Shown here: piece after piece, positions 22,454 through 32,406 of the stretch
Layout: the number at the start of each line of letters is the position of its first letter
Position numbering within the stretch: the first letter of the stretch is position 1
Origin: Eubacterium sp.
GTDB taxonomy: Bacteria > Bacillota > Clostridia > Lachnospirales > Lachnospiraceae
Reading direction: 5' to 3'
Assembly (NCBI GenBank): GCA_017477505.1
Contig: JAFUVQ010000015.1
Location: 22,192 to 86,191 of the forward strand
DNA length: 64,000 nt
Notes under the pieces: generated by a model
The model's database searches: none
Told to the model about the DNA's origin: nothing
Seen by the model: only the letters and a program-made list of their open reading frames with translations
Program-made: the position numbers and the translations under genes

Positions 22454-22508
22454 AAGCCTATAGATAATACATTTATAAAGAAATAAATTGAAAGTGAGGA
22501 TATTTATA

Positions 22509-24014
22509 ATGGCAGATAAGACTCAGGCTAATATTGGATTTGAGAAGCAGATATGGGATGCAGCGTGTGTTCTTTGGGGACATATACCTGCGGCAGAATA
22601 TAGAAAAGTTATTATAGGACTTATATTCCTTCGTTATGTGTCTACAGCATTTGAACGTAGATATGAAGAGTTGGTTGCTGAAGGTGATGGCTTTGAAGAT
22701 GATCGTGATGCCTATACTATGGAGAATATCTTCTTTGTTCCTGAAGAAGCTAGATGGAGTACTATTTCTTCAGCTGCCCATACTCCGGAAATTGGGAAAG
22801 TAGTAGATGATGCCATGAGAGCTATCGAAGCAGAGAATAAAGTGCTTAAGGGCGTTCTTCCTATGAATTATGCAAACCCGGATCTGGATAAGCAGGTTCT
22901 TGGAGATGTGGTTGATATCTTTACAAATATGGATATGGGAGATGCTGAGGAAAGTCAGGATCTTCTTGGTAGAGTATATGAGTATTGTATAGCTCAGTTT
23001 GCAGAGGTAGAAGGTAAAGGTGGTGGAGAATTCTATACACCATCTAGTGTTGTTCGTACATTAGTTGAAATACTTAAGCCATTCTCTAATTGTAGAGTAT
23101 ATGATCCTTGCTGTGGATCAGGCGGTATGTTTGTTCAGAGTGCAAAGTTTATTAAAGCTCATACTGGAACTAGAGGAAATATATCGGTTTATGGTCAGGA
23201 AGCAAATGCCGATACCTGGAAGATGGCAAAGATGAATATGGCTATCCGTGGTATAGATGCAGATTTTGGGCCTCATCAGGCAGATACATTTACAAATGAT
23301 CTTCATCCTACACTTAAGGCAGACTTTATCCTGGCAAATCCTCCATTCAATTACCATCCTTGGAATCAGGAAAAACTGACAGAAGATAAAAGATGGAAGT
23401 ATGGACTTCCTCCAGCAGGTAATGCAAACTATGCATGGATACAGCATATGATTCATCATCTTGCTCCTAATGGAAAGATAGGTCTCGTCCTTGCTAATGG
23501 TGCGTTATCTACACAGTCAAGTGGCGAAGGAGAGATTAGAAAGAAGATTATTGAAGATGATCTGATAGAAGGAATCATAGCTCTTCCTACACAGCTTTTC
23601 TATAGTGTTACAATTCCTGTTACACTTTGGTTCATATCAAGAAATAAAAAGCAAAAAGGAAAAACTCTTTTCATAGATGCTAGAAAAATGGGGCATATGA
23701 TTGACCGTAAGCATCGAGACTTTACGGATGAAGACATCATGAAGCTTGCTGATACATTCGAGTCATTCCAGAATGGAACACTTGAAGATGAAAAAGGTTA
23801 TTGTTCTGTAGCAACACTTCAAGATATAGAAAAGCAGGATTATATTTTGACTCCAGGTAGATATGTAGGAATAGAAGAGCAGGAAGATGATGGAGAACCA
23901 TTTGAGGAGAAGATGGCAAGACTTACATCAGAGCTTTCGGATATGTTTGAGAAATCTCATGAATTAGAAGATGAGATCAGAAGAAAATTGGGGGCGATAG
24001 GATATGAATTATAA
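22509..24014 (+). CDS. hsdM: Type I restriction-modification DNA methyltransferase subunit
   Basis: The 501-residue protein has the HsdM N-terminal helical domain (IWDAACVLWGHIPAAEYRKV), SAM motif I as YDPCCGSGGMF (about residue 197) and the catalytic NPPF as ANPPFNYHPW (about 278). HsdM methylates N6 of adenine within the site chosen by HsdS and is needed for both modification and cleavage. ATG 22509 follows AGTGAGGA, and an in-frame TTG seven codons earlier is rejected. The gene overlaps the start of the broken hsdS by 11 bases, the normal M-S arrangement. Confidence 0.95.
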   Translation: MADKTQANIGFEKQIWDAACVLWGHIPAAEYRKVIIGLIFLRYVSTAFERRYEELVAEGDGFEDDRDAYTMENIFFVPEEARWSTISSAAHTPEIGKVVDDAMRAIEAENKVLKGVLPMNYANPDLDKQVLGDVVDIFTNMDMGDAEESQDLLGRVYEYCIAQFAEVEGKGGGEFYTPSSVVRTLVEILKPFSNCRVYDPCCGSGGMFVQSAKFIKAHTGTRGNISVYGQEANADTWKMAKMNMAIRGIDADFGPHQADTFTNDLHPTLKADFILANPPFNYHPWNQEKLTEDKRWKYGLPPAGNANYAWIQHMIHHLAPNGKIGLVLANGALSTQSSGEGEIRKKIIEDDLIEGIIALPTQLFYSVTIPVTLWFISRNKKQKGKTLFIDARKMGHMIDRKHRDFTDEDIMKLADTFESFQNGTLEDEKGYCSVATLQDIEKQDYILTPGRYVGIEEQEDDGEPFEEKMARLTSELSDMFEKSHELEDEIRRKLGAIGYEL

Positions 24015-24546
24015 GTTAAAAGATATATGTTTAACAGTAACAGACGGTTCTCATTATAGCCCCAAGGGGGTAATCAATGGTTATCCTATGTTTTCTGTTA
24101 AAGATATGCTTGAATATGGATTTGAATATTCAAATTGCAAATGAATTAGTGAAGAAGATTTTGAAAAAATGAAAAATAGTGGATGTGTGCCACAAGAAGG
24201 AGATGTTTTAGTTGCAAAAGATGGAAGCTATTTGAAGGAAATATTTGTGTGTGAAAAAACGAAAGAAGAGGCAATTCTTTCTTCAATAGCAATATTTAGA
24301 CCTAATCAAGATATAGTTACGCCATATTATTTGAACTACTTGTTAAAATCTCCAAGAGTATATAACTATATTTCTACCAATTGTGTGTCTGGCTCCGCTT
24401 TGCCTAGAATAGTACTAAAGACATTTAAAGATGTTGAACTAGAAGTGCCTAATTTGGATATACAAAACAAAGTTGTTTCTATATTGAAAAGTTTAGATGA
24501 TAAAATTCAATGTAACTCGAGAATAAACGATTATTTAGCGGCTTAG
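24004..24546 (+). pseudogene. hsdS: Type I specificity subunit, 5' half only, with in-frame stop
   Basis: The frame begins MNYKLKDICLTVTDGSHYSP, a normal HsdS TRD1 start, but meets TGA at 24142-24144 after 46 codons. It then continues without further stops through ISEEDFEKMK, a complete TRD, and the central conserved LDDKIQCNSRINDYL. It ends in Ala-Ala-stop at 24546, where the second half should begin. The missing half lies next to it in reverse orientation, with a 15-bp inverted repeat at the break. Without the TGA it would encode a 180-residue half subunit in this orientation. As read, HsdS1 is inactive. Confidence 0.85.
24523..24537 (+). repeat. Inverted repeat 1-left, cassette 1 boundary
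   Basis: ATAAACGATTATTTA encodes INDYL at the end of the hsdS central conserved region. Its exact reverse complement lies at 25197-25211. Recombination between them would flip the 3' half into frame. Confidence 0.9.
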
Positions 24547-25211
24547 ATGTCAAGGTTGGATACATCCAGTTCCCCTGACATCAGCTTAGGTAACAGTGTA
24601 TCTCTCATTTCTGCAAGCGAATCGTTTTCAAGTTGGTTGTTAAGAATTTGCTTGAACATTGGTCCAGCTACAGAATGGAAACGGGATATCTCATCATAAG
24701 CAGGAATTATAAACGGCATAGCCTTAATAATCTTAGAATTAACCGCAGTTGCTATTGAAGAAGTACTTCCCATCGTTTGATAGTTAAAATCCTTCAGATA
24801 GCAATAAAGATATTCATTGATAAATGGCTTATCCGTTTTGAAATGGGCAATAGCCTCATTGGTGGTCATCTCACCATGTGTTATTGCAATTCTACCAACA
24901 GTAAGTTTAAAGCTTAAAAGGACTGTGTTGCTGGGAATGACTTTTATGTTGAACTTATCAACGGCCTCCTGAGTAAGCTGCTCGGAGCTTTTACAGATAT
25001 AAGTTCCACAACTACCCATATCTGAGATGGATACCCAAGTCACATCGGCCGGGTCGGTAGTAAACCATTGATGCTCCTTCCGGGGAGGAGTTTTACCAAT
25101 AGCGATATCAAAGTATTCTTCTGCTCGGCACTCGCGACGTTGATCATTTGTTGTGGAAACGAACATTTCGCGATAAAGAGCTTGAACTTGCTGAAGTAAA
25201 TAATCGTTTAT
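24543..25211 (-). pseudogene. hsdS: Inverted hsdS 3' half cassette (silent)
   Basis: Read on the minus strand from the repeat at 25211, the frame gives INDYLLQQVQALYREMF, a second target-recognition domain (AIGKTPPRKEHQWFTTDPADVTW), and the C-terminal region SLAEMRDTLLPKLMSGELDV to the stop at 24543. This is exactly the second half of a type I specificity subunit, without its own start or ribosome site. The frame stays open upstream into antisense of rhuM, but that part is not credible. After inversion it would follow the 5' half in frame (NDYL-LQQ). TRD2 differs from that of the second hsdS copy. Confidence 0.9.
25197..25211 (-). repeat. Inverted repeat 1-right, cassette 1 boundary
   Basis: TAAATAATCGTTTAT is the exact 15-bp reverse complement of 24523-24537. 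It lies 31 bases before the rhuM start, whose ribosome site AAAGGA stays outside the invertible segment. Confidence 0.9.
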
Positions 25212-25242
25212 GTAAGAATGGATAAATGAAAGGACAGAATAT

Positions 25243-26286
25243 ATGTCTAAAAAGAATAAAAGTGAAATAACTGTTCGCTCGAGCGCGGCTGAGTATTTAA
25301 CATATGTTGCATCAACAGGGGACAATCCACAGAACATAGAGATTCGTTATGAAGATGAAAATATATGGCTGACTCAGAAGGTTATGGCGAAGTTGTATGA
25401 GGTTACGGTTCCCACTGTTAACTATCATATAAATAAGATATTCAAGGATTCAGAACTTCAGAAGGATTCAGTTATTAGAAAATTTCTAATAACTGCCGAT
25501 GATGGTAAACCATATAATACAAATCATTATTCTCTTGAAATGATTATTGCAGTGGGTTTTAAGGTTAACTCTGAAAAAGCGGTACAGTTCAGAAAATGGG
25601 TGAACAACATTGCCAAAGAATATACCATCAAAGGATGGGTTATGGATGTTGAAAGACTCAAAAGAGGTACATACTTAACAGACAAGTATTTTGAAGAACA
25701 ACTCGAGCGAGTCAGAGAAATAAGGATAAGTGAAAGGAAATTTTATCAAAAAGTTACAGATCTTTATGCTACCGCTTTAGATTATGATAAAGATGCCCTT
25801 GCAACAAAAAGGTTTTATTCAACAGTACAAAACAAAATGCATTATGCTGTTCATGGGCATACGGCAGCAGAATTAATTGTTGAACGAGCGGATCATACCA
25901 AGGAACATATGGGATTAACAACATGGGCAGATGCTCCCGACGGTAAGATAAGAAAAAGTGATGTAACCATTGCAAAGAATTACCTTAGTGAGTTCGAGAT
26001 GGGGCAGTTAGAAAGAATGGTCACAGCTTATTTGGATTTTGCGGAATCAATGGCCGAAAGACATATTCCGCTTACGATGAAGGATTGGGAAACCCGTTTA
26101 AATGGTTTTATAGAGATGTTTGAGTATGGTTTATTAAAAGATGCTGGAAAAGTATCTGCTGAAATAGCTAAGCTTCATGCTGAAAGTGAATTTGAGAAAT
26201 ATAGAGTAATCCAGGATGAATTGTTTTTGTCTGATTTCGATAAGTATATGATAGAACTAGAAAACAAAGTTAAAAAGGACGAATAA
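25243..26286 (+). CDS. rhuM: RhuM family protein
   Basis: The 347-residue protein has the RhuM signature: IEIRYEDENIWLTQKVMAKLYEVTVPTVNYHI, a DNA-binding-like N-terminal domain, then HYSLEMIIAVGFKVNSEKAVQFRKWVN and a C-terminal Fic-like/helical region (YAVHGHTAAELIVERADH). RhuM proteins are frequent companions inside type I R-M and defence loci; their activity is not established. The start follows GAAAGGAC. It sits directly after the inverted hsdS cassette, inside the R-M gene set. Confidence 0.85.
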   Translation: MSKKNKSEITVRSSAAEYLTYVASTGDNPQNIEIRYEDENIWLTQKVMAKLYEVTVPTVNYHINKIFKDSELQKDSVIRKFLITADDGKPYNTNHYSLEMIIAVGFKVNSEKAVQFRKWVNNIAKEYTIKGWVMDVERLKRGTYLTDKYFEEQLERVREIRISERKFYQKVTDLYATALDYDKDALATKRFYSTVQNKMHYAVHGHTAAELIVERADHTKEHMGLTTWADAPDGKIRKSDVTIAKNYLSEFEMGQLERMVTAYLDFAESMAERHIPLTMKDWETRLNGFIEMFEYGLLKDAGKVSAEIAKLHAESEFEKYRVIQDELFLSDFDKYMIELENKVKKDE

Positions 26287-26383
26287 GCACAATTATATCA
26301 CAATAATAACTCTATGGACGGCGGAGAAAATACTAGTGGACAGCCGTCTGTGTCGTTCTCTGGAAAAAGGAAGGAGAATTGAC

Positions 26384-27370
26384 ATGAAAGAAGAATTGAT
26401 AAATGATATTTTGCAACGTATGTTATCGAGTCTCGATAATATGCAAATGAGGCATCTGGAGCAAGTGCTTAAACAATCATTTCTTTATTATGATGTAATT
26501 GATACAGAGAAGAATATAGAAAAAGATGATACTGACGATATTGTAGAAAGGTTTATATCTGCTAAGAGGATAGAAGGTTGTTCAGAGAAAACATTGAAAT
26601 ATTATCAAACTACAATTGATGCGATGGTAGTAGCTGTTAATAAGAATGTCCAGCGGATTCAAACAGAAGATTTACGTTTATATCTAACCCAATATCAAGA
26701 AAAACATAAGTCGAGTCGAGTGACAATCGATAACATTAGAAGAATTCTATCAAGTTTCTTTTCATGGATGGAGGATGAAGATTATATTATTAAAAGTCCA
26801 GTAAGACGCATACATAAGATAAAAACTGCCAGTAGTATAAAAGAAACATATTCTGATGAAGAGTTAGAAAAAATGAGAGATAATTGTGAGGAATTACGTG
26901 ATCTGGCGATTATAGATATGCTTGCATCGACAGGGATGCGTGTTGGTGAAATGGTATTGCTTAATCGTGATGATATTAACTTTGCAGAACGTGAATGTGT
27001 AGTATTTGGTAAGGGCGATAAAGAACGGATAGTATATTTTGATGCAAGGACAAAATTGCATCTTCAGGAATATATAGATAGTCGGACGGATGATAATCCC
27101 GCATTGTTCGTAACACTTAGAGCTCCATATAAGCGTATACAAATAGGTGGCATTGAACATCGGTTACGAGAGATGGGAAAGCAGTTAAATATACAAAAAG
27201 TCCATCCGCATAAATTCAGACGGACGCTTGCAACAATGGCTATTGATAAAGGGATGCCTATAGAACAGTTACAGAGGCTCTTAGGACATCAGCGGATAGA
27301 TACTACATTACAGTATGCAATGGTTAAACAAAGTAATGTAAAAATAGCACATAAGAAATACATTGGATGA
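26384..27370 (+). CDS. Tyrosine site-specific recombinase, candidate hsdS invertase
   Basis: The 328-residue integrase has a SAM-like core-binding domain (FISAKRIEGCSEKTLKYYQ, about 50-140) and a catalytic domain. Visible catalytic residues are Arg in STGMRVGEM (about 185), HPHKFRR (His/Arg, about 275), His in LLGHQRIDTT (about 302) and Tyr in LQYAMV (about 311). ATG 26384 follows GAAGGAGAAT; an in-frame GTG 16 codons earlier lacks a ribosome site. It lies between two hsdS copies and 12 bases from the second, the position seen for recombinases that invert hsdS in phase-variable type I systems. No prophage genes are nearby. Confidence 0.9.
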   Translation: MKEELINDILQRMLSSLDNMQMRHLEQVLKQSFLYYDVIDTEKNIEKDDTDDIVERFISAKRIEGCSEKTLKYYQTTIDAMVVAVNKNVQRIQTEDLRLYLTQYQEKHKSSRVTIDNIRRILSSFFSWMEDEDYIIKSPVRRIHKIKTASSIKETYSDEELEKMRDNCEELRDLAIIDMLASTGMRVGEMVLLNRDDINFAERECVVFGKGDKERIVYFDARTKLHLQEYIDSRTDDNPALFVTLRAPYKRIQIGGIEHRLREMGKQLNIQKVHPHKFRRTLATMAIDKGMPIEQLQRLLGHQRIDTTLQYAMVKQSNVKIAHKKYIG

Positions 27371-27382
27371 AAGGATGATTAT

Positions 27383-28534
27383 ATGAAACAAGTTGAATAT
27401 CAATTTGATGAGGTGGTAACACTCTTTGATAAGCAAAGGGTTCCTTTGTCATCAATGGAACGATCAAAGAGACAAGGTTCATATAGATATTATGGTGCAC
27501 AGGGAATCATAGATTATATTGACGATTATATTTTTGATGGAGAGTATATTCTACTTGCGGAGGACGGTGAAAACCTTAAATCGAATAAGCAAGACTTAGC
27601 ACAGTTGGTAGATGGGAAATTTTGGGTAAATAATCATGCACATATTTTGCGAACAAAAGAAGTATGTCGACTGCGTTATTTCTACTTTTGGATTAATAGC
27701 AAAAATTTGACGGAGTATGTGACTGGATCGGCGCAACCAAAACTGAGTCAGGGAAGCCTCAAAAAGATGATTATTCCACTTCCGACATTAGAAATACAGG
27801 ATAAGATTCTAAGTATTATAACACCGATAGATGAAAAGATAAAGGAGAATGCTAGGGTAAACGATAATTTAACTCAACAAGCTCGTTCGTTGTATCAGGC
27901 TTGGTTTGTTGATTATGAGCCGTTTGGTGGCTCTGCTCCTTCCGATTGGTCAAATGTATCTCTAGGGCAGGTGGCCATAATGAAGACTGATAGCTGGTCT
28001 CCAGTCAAAAATCCGGATGATGTGGTAGAGCACTATAGTATCCCGGCATATGATGAGCAGTATTATCCAGTATTTGAAAGTGCCACGGATATCAAAAGCA
28101 ATAAATACATTCTTACACCGGACTCAGTAATGATATCCAAGCTGAATCCTGATACAAAGAGAATATGGCGGCCTATTTGTCTATCAGCAAATTCGGTATG
28201 CTCCACGGAGTTTATTGTCTATGAAGCAAGAAAGAACGACCAAAAGGATTTTATTTATTCGATTCTTGATAGCGTTCCTTTCTTTAACTATTTATGTGCT
28301 CACACCACAGGTTCAACGAACAGTCGCCAAAGAGCAACACCGAAAGCTACATTGGATTTTAGTTTTCAGTTGCCACCTGATAACGTAATTAAGGACTTTT
28401 GTCAGCTCGTAACTCCGATGTATGATCTGATAGCGTCCAACATTGTTGAAAACCAGTCATTAGCGCAAACAAGAGATAGTTTACTTCCACGCTTAATGAC
28501 AGGTGAACTGGATGTTTCCAACCTCGACCTCTAA
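27383..28534 (+). CDS. hsdS: Type I specificity subunit, intact copy with invertible 3' half
   Basis: The 383-residue protein has two target-recognition domains, at about 1-140 and 190-340, each followed by a conserved helical region: LSIITPIDEKIKENARVNDNL in the middle and SLAQTRDSLLPRLMTGELDV at the end. It would choose a bipartite DNA site and hold two HsdM subunits. The start follows AAAGGATG. Inverted repeats at 27859-27871 and 28540-28552 bracket its second half. Flipping that segment would replace it with Leu-Ala-Ala-stop, the ending now seen in the first copy. In this orientation it is the functional specificity gene of the locus. Confidence 0.92.
   Translation: MKQVEYQFDEVVTLFDKQRVPLSSMERSKRQGSYRYYGAQGIIDYIDDYIFDGEYILLAEDGENLKSNKQDLAQLVDGKFWVNNHAHILRTKEVCRLRYFYFWINSKNLTEYVTGSAQPKLSQGSLKKMIIPLPTLEIQDKILSIITPIDEKIKENARVNDNLTQQARSLYQAWFVDYEPFGGSAPSDWSNVSLGQVAIMKTDSWSPVKNPDDVVEHYSIPAYDEQYYPVFESATDIKSNKYILTPDSVMISKLNPDTKRIWRPICLSANSVCSTEFIVYEARKNDQKDFIYSILDSVPFFNYLCAHTTGSTNSRQRATPKATLDFSFQLPPDNVIKDFCQLVTPMYDLIASNIVENQSLAQTRDSLLPRLMTGELDVSNLDL
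27859..27871 (+). repeat. Inverted repeat 2-left, cassette 2 boundary
   Basis: AAACGATAATTTA encodes part of VNDNL in the central conserved region. The exact reverse complement is at 28540-28552, just after the stop codon. It differs at one base from the matching segment of repeat 1. Confidence 0.88.
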
Positions 28535-28539
28535 GCCGC

Positions 28540-28552
28540 TAAATTATCGTTT
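28540..28552 (-). repeat. Inverted repeat 2-right, cassette 2 boundary
   Basis: TAAATTATCGTTT lies five bases after the hsdS stop and just before the GGAGAG ribosome site of the next gene. On the reverse strand it continues AGCGGCTTAG, which would supply the alternative stop after inversion. Confidence 0.88.
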
Positions 28553-28567
28553 TGGAGAGAATGAAAT

Positions 28568-29182
28568 ATGGATAAAAAAGAACAGCTAATATCTTTGCAT
28601 TATAAGAGCATTATAGAAAATGTGTCTTTTGACGAATACGATATATTAGGCTTTTTGATTTTTTCAAGAAATACGATTAGAACTTATGGTTTATATTATT
28701 TGTTGGAGTTTGCTGATTTAATAGCTCATAGAGGTAGAGATCGTGGTGCAATAATGGATTCTATAAAAGGCGCACATGATAATTCTTATGAGACTCAAGA
28801 AGGAACAAAAAAGCTTAAAGGATATAACGGGATAACAAAAGATTGTTTAGAAATAGAATTAAGAAAGCTTTGTAAAATATTAGGGATAAAAACCTCTGAT
28901 GAATCTATATATGATATCATTCTTTGCATTTATTCATTAGCGCAGTTTTCAGAATATAAGAAGGAGCAAGTGAATGGTAAAGTATTGCTCGTTCAAACAA
29001 AGAATGGTTTGGGACTAACTACTGCAGAGGATTACCCGAGTGCCCCGTTTGTATGTTTTTCTATTCTGGACAATTGTAAGTTTAATATTGAATATAGTGG
29101 TGGATATATAGATAAGCCGGTTGAAGCAGTAAGAGTCGATGGGCGACTTAGACTTAAAAACGAAGATGGATTTGTTATTTGA
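28568..29182 (+). CDS. Unknown protein encoded between hsdS and hsdR
   Basis: The 204-residue soluble protein starts MDKKEQLISLHYKSIIENVSF and contains the striking segment LLEFADLIAHRGRDRGAIMDSI, then a C-terminal beta-rich part (NIEYSGGYIDKPVEAVRVDG). It has no transmembrane helix and no family that I recognise. A GGAGAG ribosome site precedes it, and hsdR starts 15 bases after its stop, so it is inside the R-M operon. It could be an accessory defence factor or a regulator of restriction. Confidence 0.65.
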   Translation: MDKKEQLISLHYKSIIENVSFDEYDILGFLIFSRNTIRTYGLYYLLEFADLIAHRGRDRGAIMDSIKGAHDNSYETQEGTKKLKGYNGITKDCLEIELRKLCKILGIKTSDESIYDIILCIYSLAQFSEYKKEQVNGKVLLVQTKNGLGLTTAEDYPSAPFVCFSILDNCKFNIEYSGGYIDKPVEAVRVDGRLRLKNEDGFVI

Positions 29183-29196
29183 AAAGAGGTGAAAAA

Positions 29197-32100
29197 ATGT
29201 CTGATTTCTACACCGAAGCAAATTATGAGAATTCTCTCATAGAATTATTTCAAAATATGGGATACCAATATGCATATGGACCTGATATTGAAAGGGATTA
29301 TAAGAGTCCTTTATATGATGATGTCCTTTTAGACTCATTATATAGACTGAATCCATCATTACCTGATTCGGCTATTCAGGATGCCCTGTATAAACTGAAG
29401 AACTTTGAAAATGGAACACTTGTGCAGAAGAATACAGTCTTCATGAATTATCTACAGAATGGTATAGAAGTAAGTTTCCATGATAAAGGAGAGACTAAGT
29501 CTGATATTGTTTATATTGTAGATTACGAAAATGTAGATAATAACAGTTTTATAGTGGCTAATCAGTGGACATTTATAGAGAATAGTAATAAGCGTCCGGA
29601 TGTACTTCTATTCTTAAATGGAATTCCGGTTGTCCTTATTGAACTTAAATCCCCTTCGAGAGAAGAGACAGATGCGTCGGAAGCATATCTGCAGATAAGA
29701 AATTATATGCAGGAGATACCTTCGATGTTTAACTATAATGCTATCTGCGTTATGAGTGATATGTCTATATCTAAGGCAGGAACTATCACTTCAGGTGAAG
29801 ATAGATATATGGAATGGAAAACAAAGGATGGTAATTATGAGAATACTCAGTATGCTCAGTTTGATACATTCTTTGAGGGGATATTTGAGAAGGGACGTTT
29901 TTTAGATATCCTGAAGAACTTCATTTGTTTCAATGTAGAAGGAATAAATTCATATAAGATATTAGCTGGATATCACCAGTATTTTGCGGTTCGTAAGGCT
30001 ATTGAAAGTACTAAAAAGGCAGCTGCTGAGGATGGCGATGGAAAAGGTGGTGTATTCTGGCATACTCAGGGCTCAGGAAAATCTCTATCGATGGTGTTTT
30101 ATGCTCATCTGCTTCAGCAGGCACTTAATAGTCCGACTATAGTTGTTATTACAGATAGAAATGATCTTGACGATCAGCTGTTCTCTCAGTTTGCAAGATG
30201 TAGTGACTTCTTGCGACAAAAGCCGGAACACGCTAACAGCAGAGAACATTTAATGACATGGCTAAATTCCAAGAAGGCTAATGGAATTATATTTACAACA
30301 ATGCAGAAGTTTGAGGAGTCATCCACAGCTCTTTCGGATAGGAAGAATATTATTGTTATGGCAGATGAAGCCCATCGGAGTCAGTATGGTCTTACTGAAA
30401 AAATTAAGATGGTTACTAATGAAGATGGTGAGCAGGAAGCTAAACGTGTAGTTGGTACAGCTCGTATAATCCGTGACTGTCTTCCAAATGCCACATTTAT
30501 CGGATTTACAGGAACTCCTGTTTCCTCAGCGGATCACAATACCAGAGCTGTGTTCGGAGATTACATAGATGTTTATGATATGACTCAGGCTGTAGAAGAT
30601 GGTGCTACAAGACCTGTTTATTATGAAAGCCGTGTAGTAAAACTTAATCTTGATGAGAATACGATAAAGCTTATTGATCAGGAATATGACATGATCGAAG
30701 CAACTGATCAAGCTGATGAAGCTGTTATACAGAAGAGTAAGCAGACTCTTGGAAAGATGGAAGCTATCTTAGGAAATCCTCAGACTATTAATTCTCTTGT
30801 AAATGATATTTTGGATCACTATGAGAATTATCGTGCTAATCTGCTTACTGGAAAGGCTATGATAGTTGCATATTCCAGAGGGATAGCTCTTGATATATAT
30901 AATAAGATTCTTGAACTTAGACCGGGTTGGAAAGAGAAGGTTGCTTTAGTTATGACTGAAAGCAACAAAGATCCGGAAGAGTGGAGAAAGATTATAGGAA
31001 ATAAGACACATAGGAATGAACTCGCAAAACAGTTTAAGGATAACAACAGTCCGCTTAAGATAGCTATAGTTGTTGATATGTGGCTTACCGGATTTGATGT
31101 TCCATCACTTGCTACTATGTATGTATATAAGCCTATGTCCGGTCATAATCTTATGCAGGCTATAGCAAGAGTAAACCGTGTATTTAAGGATAAAGAAGGT
31201 GGTCTGGTTATTGATTATGTTGGTATCGCCAGAGCACTTAAGCAGGCTATGAATGACTATACGTCTCGTGATCAGAAGAATTACGGTGACACAGATGTTG
31301 CTAAGGTGGCTTATCCTAAGTTCCAGGAAAAACTTGAAGTTTGTCGTGATCTCCTGCACGAGTACAGTTACGAAGAATTCATGAATGGCTCTGATCTGGA
31401 CAGAGCAAAAGTTATTACCGGGGCGGTGAACTATGTTGCAGCACCTGATAAAGAGGATATTCTTAAATCATTTATAAAAGAGGCTTACCTTCTTCATCAG
31501 GCATTATCACTTTGTTCATCACTTACATCAGAATCTGAAAGACTTGAAGCTGCTTTTTTTGAGGCGGTTCGAGTTATGGCTAATCGTATTCTTATTGATG
31601 GCGGAAAGAGTAAGCTGTCACTTAAAGAACTTAATAGCCAGATAAATGAGCTTCTAAAACAGAGTATTAAGAGTGATGGAGTAATTAATCTGTTTGAATC
31701 AAAGGAAACTTTTTCATTATTTGATCCAAAGTTCCTTGAAGAAATATCCAGGATGAAGCAGAAAAACCTTGCTGTAGAACTCCTAAAGAAACTTATAGCG
31801 GAGCAGATCGCTATTTATCGAAGATCAAATGTTGTAAAATCTGAAAAATTCAGTGAGATCATACAGCGCGTTATGAATCAATATCTAAATGGCCTTCTGA
31901 CTAACCAGCAGGTTATTGATGAACTCATGAAACTTGCACAGGAGATTCAGGAGAGTAAGCAAGCTGGAAATGATATGGGACTCACAGATGAGGAACTGGC
32001 ATTCTACGATGCACTTACCAAACCGGAGGCAATAAAAGATTTTTATGAGAATGAGGAGCTGGTAGCTCTTACAAAGGAGCTTACAGAAACCCTTAGAAAG

Positions 32101-32406
32101 AATAAAACTATTGATTGGCAAAAACGTGAAACAGCAAGGGCAAAGATGCGTATGCTGATCAAAAAATTACTAAAGAAGTATAAATATCCTCCTGAGGGGA
32201 TGGAGGATGCTCTTGAAACAGTTATGGTACAGTGTGAACTCTGGACTGATAACAATGATATGGGGGATCAGGTTTCAGAGTATGCTACTTCTTATTCAGA
32301 AGTATTTACGAAAAAGGAGACGGCATTTAACTATGGACAGAATAATAGTCCGGAATTGATGGTGGCAGAGCCCAGTGCTTACGGACACAAACATCCAAAT
32401 GAATAA
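29197..32406 (+). CDS. hsdR: Type I restriction endonuclease/translocase subunit
   Basis: The 1069-residue protein has an N-terminal PD-(D/E)XK nuclease with PDVLLFLNGIPVVLIELKSP (about 134-153). It is followed by an SF2 translocase with Walker A HTQGSGKSLSM (about 288), DEAHRSQYG (about 390), FIGFTGTP (about 433) and motif VI near NLMQAIARVNRVF. HsdR binds the HsdM2S complex, translocates DNA and cleaves at a distance. ATG 29197 follows AAAGAGGTG. All catalytic motifs are present, so restriction is predicted to be active when HsdS is. Confidence 0.95.
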   Translation: MSDFYTEANYENSLIELFQNMGYQYAYGPDIERDYKSPLYDDVLLDSLYRLNPSLPDSAIQDALYKLKNFENGTLVQKNTVFMNYLQNGIEVSFHDKGETKSDIVYIVDYENVDNNSFIVANQWTFIENSNKRPDVLLFLNGIPVVLIELKSPSREETDASEAYLQIRNYMQEIPSMFNYNAICVMSDMSISKAGTITSGEDRYMEWKTKDGNYENTQYAQFDTFFEGIFEKGRFLDILKNFICFNVEGINSYKILAGYHQYFAVRKAIESTKKAAAEDGDGKGGVFWHTQGSGKSLSMVFYAHLLQQALNSPTIVVITDRNDLDDQLFSQFARCSDFLRQKPEHANSREHLMTWLNSKKANGIIFTTMQKFEESSTALSDRKNIIVMADEAHRSQYGLTEKIKMVTNEDGEQEAKRVVGTARIIRDCLPNATFIGFTGTPVSSADHNTRAVFGDYIDVYDMTQAVEDGATRPVYYESRVVKLNLDENTIKLIDQEYDMIEATDQADEAVIQKSKQTLGKMEAILGNPQTINSLVNDILDHYENYRANLLTGKAMIVAYSRGIALDIYNKILELRPGWKEKVALVMTESNKDPEEWRKIIGNKTHRNELAKQFKDNNSPLKIAIVVDMWLTGFDVPSLATMYVYKPMSGHNLMQAIARVNRVFKDKEGGLVIDYVGIARALKQAMNDYTSRDQKNYGDTDVAKVAYPKFQEKLEVCRDLLHEYSYEEFMNGSDLDRAKVITGAVNYVAAPDKEDILKSFIKEAYLLHQALSLCSSLTSESERLEAAFFEAVRVMANRILIDGGKSKLSLKELNSQINELLKQSIKSDGVINLFESKETFSLFDPKFLEEISRMKQKNLAVELLKKLIAEQIAIYRRSNVVKSEKFSEIIQRVMNQYLNGLLTNQQVIDELMKLAQEIQESKQAGNDMGLTDEELAFYDALTKPEAIKDFYENEELVALTKELTETLRKNKTIDWQKRETARAKMRMLIKKLLKKYKYPPEGMEDALETVMVQCELWTDNNDMGDQVSEYATSYSEVFTKKETAFNYGQNNSPELMVAEPSAYGHKHPNE

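Follow-up and report, generated by a model that had tools for sequence, protein, structure and literature searches.

The 64,000-nucleotide stretch of Eubacterium sp. DNA analysed here (the window; part of contig C44 in a 76-contig draft assembly of 3.2 Mb) carries a type I restriction-modification locus in which two hsdS genes lie around the gene of a tyrosine recombinase. Comparison with relatives indicates that such loci are very probably coupled switches, in which two 5' halves and two 3' halves of hsdS are combined so that one gene is complete at a time, the 3' halves are exchanged between the genes, and flips within a single cassette (a 3' half between its two sites) are rare or weeded out. 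The assemblies show that in most relatives one hsdS gene reads as complete, whereas the other would be cut short after its 5' half by a built-in stop. The window locus is of a kind already described and tested in 2023 as SsuCC20p of Streptococcus suis (Roodsant et al. 2023, PMC10790761). What is new here is its spread beyond streptococci, the parity of the two cassettes across 83 recombinase clusters, the concerted site centres, six loci with an inverted middle segment, and the odd copy in the window. A switch described from streptococci thus becomes a widespread class.

Each 3' target recognition domain (TRD) of the window is bounded by convergent short repeats, one in the central conserved codons and one behind the 3' end. 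The core AAACGATTATTTA is found at 24525-24537 (+) and 25197-25209 (-), and the core AAACGATAATTTA at 27859-27871 (+) and 28540-28552 (-). The first-pass annotation of this DNA had proposed that inverted repeats bound both hsdS 3' halves, and the convergent sites of 13-15 nucleotides (nt) that flank each of them confirm this. When at most one mismatch to the site pattern was allowed, the window held five matches, namely the four exact sites and one stray, compared with a mean of 0.47 and a maximum of 3 in 100 shuffled windows. The proposed gene ends likewise hold. Cassette 1 is inverted, so that the hsdS1 translation ends in INDYLAA-stop; cassette 2 is in frame, and its inversion in silico gives VNDNLAA-stop; and the common terminal sequence said to lie behind each 3' half, GCGGCTTAG, follows the core at both stop ends. 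With hsdS2 complete and hsdS1 half-length, the window has exactly one complete hsdS gene.

Relatives were collected through the recombinase, which was matched in 7 of 61 genomes of the genus (E-value 1e-50) and 45 of 396 of the family (1e-80), and by profile in 50 of 393 genomes of the order (1e-110), 20 of 393 of the class (1e-140), and 6 of 398 of the phylum (1e-140). The best 80 of at least 557 matches in genome contigs were used, a scan of viral contigs supplied 32 loci, and 13 of the 17 plasmid and phage matches (13 plasmid records and four phages) were fetched, with H13 and H15-H17 left out. These searches overlap, and the genome that holds the window is itself among those counted; part of the family, order, class, and phylum matches was fetched with flanks. 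Among the 208 recombinase-bearing loci examined, 143 have at least one cassette, and 104 have a cassette on each side of the recombinase; removal of 12 duplicates leaves 92, the window included. In 39 of the 143 loci a single cassette was recognised (16 forward, 23 inverted), either because the contig stops short or because the second cassette escaped recognition, and these loci stand outside the parity count. The main count allowed at most one mismatch between the two centres of a cassette, with none preferred, and favoured cassette pairs sharing a centre; a stricter 14-mer count kept the same centre rule and gave no such preference to pairs, and a third count used a narrower site pattern. 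Phylum is known for 51 of the 92 loci (46 Bacillota, 2 Spirochaetota, 2 Pseudomonadota, 1 Bacteroidota), and all five loci from outside Bacillota come from metagenome bins. Among the fetched plasmid and phage loci, no such cassettes were found at L216, L222, and L223, and L214 has only one. L222 lies on pNP174 of the archaeon Methanosphaera, where a 58% identical recombinase adjoins a pair of 16-nt inverted repeats and no hsd genes are annotated nearby.

The two cassettes of a locus do not stand in independent orientations. One is forward and one inverted (discordant) in 86 of the 92 loci, and only 6 are concordant, which gives a binomial p of 3e-19 on the assumption of independent cassettes and unrelated loci. 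Near-identical strains persist among the 92; when these are allowed for by clustering the recombinases at 95% nucleotide identity, 77 of 83 clusters are wholly discordant. In 83 of the 92 loci, both 5' halves (A for S1, C for S2) are co-directional with the recombinase, and here S1 is inverted and S2 forward in 45, the reverse holds in 33, both are inverted in 4, and both are forward in 1. In six further loci, the middle segment, comprising the recombinase and the second 5' half, is inverted with its sites intact. One cassette then lies between A and C, which both point towards it, and the second cassette is left on its own; these six loci are also discordant (four of one kind and two of the other), and none is concordant. 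The hsdM match lies opposite the recombinase strand in all six, those of L067 and L076 being only about 25% identical. A seventh inverted-middle discordant locus, L201, appears under the narrower pattern and is outside the main count. The middle segment is unclassed in three loci, one of each discordant kind and one with both cassettes forward. Which of the two genes is complete does not follow the recombinase tree (78 labelled loci; 26 changes compared with 25.1 ± 2.3 in 300 shuffles), and thus the states turn over quickly while parity stays.

The 3' halves are also seen to change genes. In the Lactococcus plasmids pJM2A and pUC073A, A is joined to a forward 3' half P and C to an inverted 3' half Q, whereas pUCCL627F has A-Q forward and C-P inverted; the parts are 100% identical, both in the 5' halves (520 nt compared) and in P and Q (633 and 646 nt). 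Similarly, the halves found in L132 are related to those of L157 (88% and 82% identical) but occupy each other's positions. Together, parity and the Lactococcus exchange indicate that the genes are coupled and that TRDs are swapped. The first-pass annotation had proposed two alternating forms for each hsdS gene, one complete and one half-length with its end at a built-in stop, and this part stands; its assumption that the genes do so independently, without a TRD swap, conflicts with the single forward cassette in 86 of 92 loci, with the exchanged Lactococcus halves, and with the single complete hsdS gene in all 22 S. suis isolates whose locus is complete, as given in the accessible part of PMC10790761.

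The sites themselves point in the same direction. Fifteen five-base centres occur overall, yet 91 of 92 loci use a single centre throughout their four sites; in the stricter-pattern count, in which each cassette was paired blind to the other, the centre is uniform in 76 of 77. Tyrosine recombinases generally need matching site centres, and concerted centres would be expected if sites recombine across cassettes under such a requirement. The like stop ends of one locus share 0.66 identity over 40 nt, compared with 0.48 between loci, and the like start ends 0.53 compared with 0.49, hardly above the control, whereas unlike ends share approx. 0.30 (n = 90 loci for each). In the one-cassette loci, the two centres match in 37 of 39. 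One of the remaining two, L030 (genome G002, same genus), has one complete hsdS gene, unlike centres at its two sites, and one leftover site; its recombinase match extends over 162 amino acids (aa) only, and it looks like a locus fixed by deletion.

If the sites are numbered 1(+), 2(-), 3(+), and 4(-), the recombinase would join sites of different cassettes, namely the outer pair (1x4), the inner pair (2x3), or both cassettes by direct exchange. Any of these, provided that direct exchange keeps orientation, would conserve discordance and hold the number of forward cassettes at one, whereas a flip within a cassette (1x2 or 3x4) would break it. The observed parity therefore argues against frequent in-cassette flips, or for the loss of their products. 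By site order, like ends (the two start ends, or the two stop ends) would form the inverted pairs 1/4 and 2/3 in discordant states and direct repeats in concordant ones, and the extra identity of like ends might explain in physical terms both why exchange occurs and why concordant loci are rare.

Several observations weigh against this coupled exchange. Pairing of like ends alone cannot convert S1-complete loci to the S2-complete state, although neither state is rare (33 and 45 loci, respectively); direct-repeat shuffling, as in the tvr system, could be a route between them. Four loci have both cassettes inverted (L166, L169, L186, and L215), among them a complete plasmid, L215, and two have both forward, L146 and L228, the latter a contig of 3.2 kb. 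The two 3' halves of L146 are 100% identical, which may reflect a chimeric assembly, and in plasmid pJM1A (L219), although it is discordant (A-P inverted, C-P forward), the two genes share one 3' half; a mixed culture could have given rise to chimeras in both cases. The centres of one cassette differ by one base in L030 and in L203, the window copy itself departs from the family, and all cassette states are taken from assemblies rather than from reads. In Ruminococcus flavefaciens YRD2003, two such systems share one contig, L159 and the both-inverted L169, with centres CGATA and TGAAA.

The window copy looks partly broken, in two respects that the first-pass annotation had missed. First, codon 47 of hsdS1 (24142-24144) is an in-frame TGA, and from the ATG at 24004, as assembled, neither orientation of cassette 1 therefore yields an intact product; the nearest 5' half to that of hsdS1 (L106, 49% identical; 239 compared, duplicates included) is open at this position. 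Second, the site centres differ by one base between the cassettes, CGATT in cassette 1 and CGATA in cassette 2. The SsuCC20p type is marked by two identical repeat sets, which the other 91 of the 92 loci have and the window lacks; the window is thus best filed as a diverged copy working like that type, not as a typical member. Given the half form of hsdS1, its TGA, and the unlike centres, hsdS2 is expected to work, and its exchange with cassette 1 would be weak or lost. A rival reading, that the locus is locked with hsdS1 dead and hsdS2 fixed as complete, has in our estimate about an even chance. It draws on the TGA, on the unlike centres of the two cassettes, which no other locus of the 92 shows, and on an orphan cassette with a 3' half that adjoins a truncated recombinase elsewhere in the assembly; on the other hand, the recombinase open reading frame (ORF) is intact, none of the four sites is missing and the two centres of each cassette agree, and the TGA could be an assembly error in a 76-contig draft. 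The orphan (contig C10, 12401-13084, or L012:4402-5085) has two intact sites with centre CGATA and no 5' half; it adjoins a KilA-N gene as well as the truncated recombinase and is 98.5% identical over 656 nt to the in-frame 3' half of L030.

For the family as a whole, the most serious alternative is that cassettes flip freely and that cells or lineages with two or zero complete genes are lost, either by selection or by deletion between directly repeated like ends. Such loss would account equally for 86 discordant loci in 92, rare concordant loci do exist, like ends would be direct repeats in concordant states and the stop ends share extra identity, and L030 is a deleted, apparently fixed relative. 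However, the solo cassette of the inverted-middle loci has no 5' half and should be neutral in orientation, yet all six of these loci, a small number, are discordant; moreover, the S. suis long reads, as we understand the accessible part of PMC10790761, include no molecules with two complete or with only truncated genes. We regard this alternative as unlikely, though it deserves more weight than the others below. It is a rather remote prospect that the one-complete-gene rule is produced by recombination itself, through outer- and then inner-pair inversions via a recombinase-inverted intermediate, and also that the centre change in the window has uncoupled a four-allele switch into two flips. 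If this were true, the uncoupled switch of the window would consist of separate flips, which is the behaviour that the first-pass annotation had proposed.

That proposal, in its general form, holds that each gene flips its own 3' half independently and so alternates between a two-TRD subunit and a one-TRD subunit, the latter pairing with itself to read palindromic sites. Dimers of half-length S subunits can be functional, and truncated S subunits of EcoR124I and EcoDXXI and the natural NgoAV form dimers that read palindromes (PMC3874165, in its accessible part). Each cassette does occur in either orientation beside identical 5' halves: in L122 and L124, the 5' halves are 100% identical and the S1 3' half, 99.8% identical, is inverted in place. 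In the out-of-frame orientation, a stop follows exactly six codons from the site, i.e., at codon 7, in 154 of 184 cassettes, by way of three different stop codons, and within 12 codons in 180. The incomplete gene would encode a median of 181 aa (147-231, n = 85) and the complete gene 392 aa (n = 76), both counted from the first ATG in loci with normal-direction 5' halves, the window left out. However, the third base of the last codon is T or C in 0.93 of the 184 halves, compared with 0.06 to 0.88 over the eleven preceding codons, and because of this control the built-in stop is modest evidence of selection. The half form also lacks the EQQAxAxF segment that follows the site in the consensus and that probably belongs to the dimerisation helix. 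The profile A3 matches the solved S subunits 1yf2, 3okg, 2y7c, and 7bst. The accompanying claim of a change in site symmetry through half-length homodimers finds no support: the S. suis wild type, with a truncated hsdS beside a complete one, has two bipartite motifs, and no palindromic one is reported in the accessible part of PMC10790761. Since independent toggles predict concordance in half of the loci and it is found in 6 of 92, and since 3' halves change genes, this proposal was rejected as highly improbable.

The locus runs hsdM, hsdS1 5' half, inverted 3' half, RhuM gene, XerA-type tyrosine recombinase, complete hsdS2, a 204-aa ORF, and hsdR (Table 1). Pfam Methylase_S matches the hsdS1 5' half, the inverted 3' half, and hsdS2. 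An in-frame GTG lies upstream of the recombinase ORF at 26336, and the 204-aa ORF directly before hsdR has no family match in Pfam, NCBIfam, or PADLOC at an E-value of 0.001. The gap between cassette 1 and the recombinase is a cargo slot, exceeding 600 nt in 15 of 83 loci. Among ten such long gaps scanned (the window and nine others), seven hold a recognisable family and three do not; the families are RhuM (two, the window's also being PDC-S05 by PADLOC), Fic, zeta-like, HepT, nucleotidyltransferase, and DUF4160.

Table 1. Features of the type I locus in the window (window coordinates)
Feature	Position	Strand	Basis
hsdM, type I methyltransferase subunit	22488..24014	+	Pfam N6_Mtase 3.9e-111 and HsdM_N
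hsdS1 5' half (TRD-A); standing form ends INDYL-AA-stop	24004..24546	+	translation; Methylase_S 5.3e-10 on 24169-24543
Site 1, TAAACGATTATTTA, centre CGATT	24524..24537	+	
Cassette 1, inverted hsdS 3' half	24538..25196	-	Methylase_S 6.6e-08; 221 codons open from site 2, ends SNLDI-stop
Site 2, TAAACGATTATTTA, centre CGATT	25197..25210	-	
RhuM-family gene, in cargo slot between cassette 1 and recombinase	25243..26286	+	Pfam Virulence_RhuM 2e-105; PADLOC PDC-S05 8.1e-146
Tyrosine recombinase, XerA type	26384..27370	+	Pfam Phage_integrase 3.5e-31; NCBIfam recomb_XerA_Arch 244.8 bits (cutoff 220)
hsdS2, complete, 383 aa; 5' half 27383-27871 fused in frame with 3' half 27872-28534	27383..28534	+	Methylase_S 1.4e-22
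Site 3, TAAACGATAATTTA, centre CGATA	27858..27871	+	
Site 4, AAAACGATAATTTA, centre CGATA	28540..28553	-	
204-aa ORF between hsdS2 and hsdR	28568..29182	+	
hsdR, type I restriction subunit	29179..32406	+	Pfam HSDR_N 7e-40; T1RH-like_C 1.5e-91

Among known systems, the accessible parts of the sources describe for the type I loci of Listeria CC8 and CC4 and for SpnIII of S. pneumoniae hsdS genes with a tyrosine recombinase between them, central hsdS repeats, and TRD shuffling, as here (PMC4783014, PMC7662400, PMC7394358, PMC6620402). In Listeria CC8, however, the hsdS genes are opposed, in CC4 the second is inactive, and the repeats are placed close to the 5' end as well as between the TRDs, whereas in the window both genes have the same direction and each 3' half has two sites of its own. 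The CC8 kind was rejected for the window, as the 5' halves of hsdS1 and hsdS2 are both on the + strand. SpnIV/tvr of S. pneumoniae resembles the present loci in that hsdS pieces are relocated by a locus-encoded tyrosine recombinase; it is described as using direct repeats and circular intermediates, in contrast to the convergent site pairs and inverted cassettes found here (PMC6265443, in its accessible part). Surveys reporting inverted repeats in many hsdS loci (PMC7394358) and inversions at type I loci in 13 species (PMC5903667) may, from what is accessible of them, hold such loci. Published plasmid loci, for which the accessible text gives no mechanism or arrangement, are probably L217 and L219 of the present set, judging by strain names.

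The closest relative is SsuCC20p, for which the following is taken from the accessible part of PMC10790761. Like the window, it has hsdM, hsdR, two co-directional hsdS genes around an Xer-type recombinase, and one complete hsdS. Its second and fourth TRDs each lie between identical 14-nt convergent repeats and invert together or switch place; xerD is required for switching, and four alleles occur. Transcription and methylation also arise from the position downstream of xerD, complete genes methylate in either position, and the wild-type methylome shows only bipartite motifs, two in number. Its repeat, TAAATCATCATTTA, has the centre TCATC, which occurs in 5 of the 92 loci analysed here. The window differs in having the centres CGATT and CGATA in its two cassettes, a RhuM gene in the gap, and an interrupted hsdS1. 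The form with an inverted recombinase was not seen in S. suis and was noted in five S. agalactiae strains in which repeats had been lost. The system was found in streptococci only and its mechanism was left open; the parity of the cassettes and the inverted-middle form with intact sites bear directly on that mechanism.

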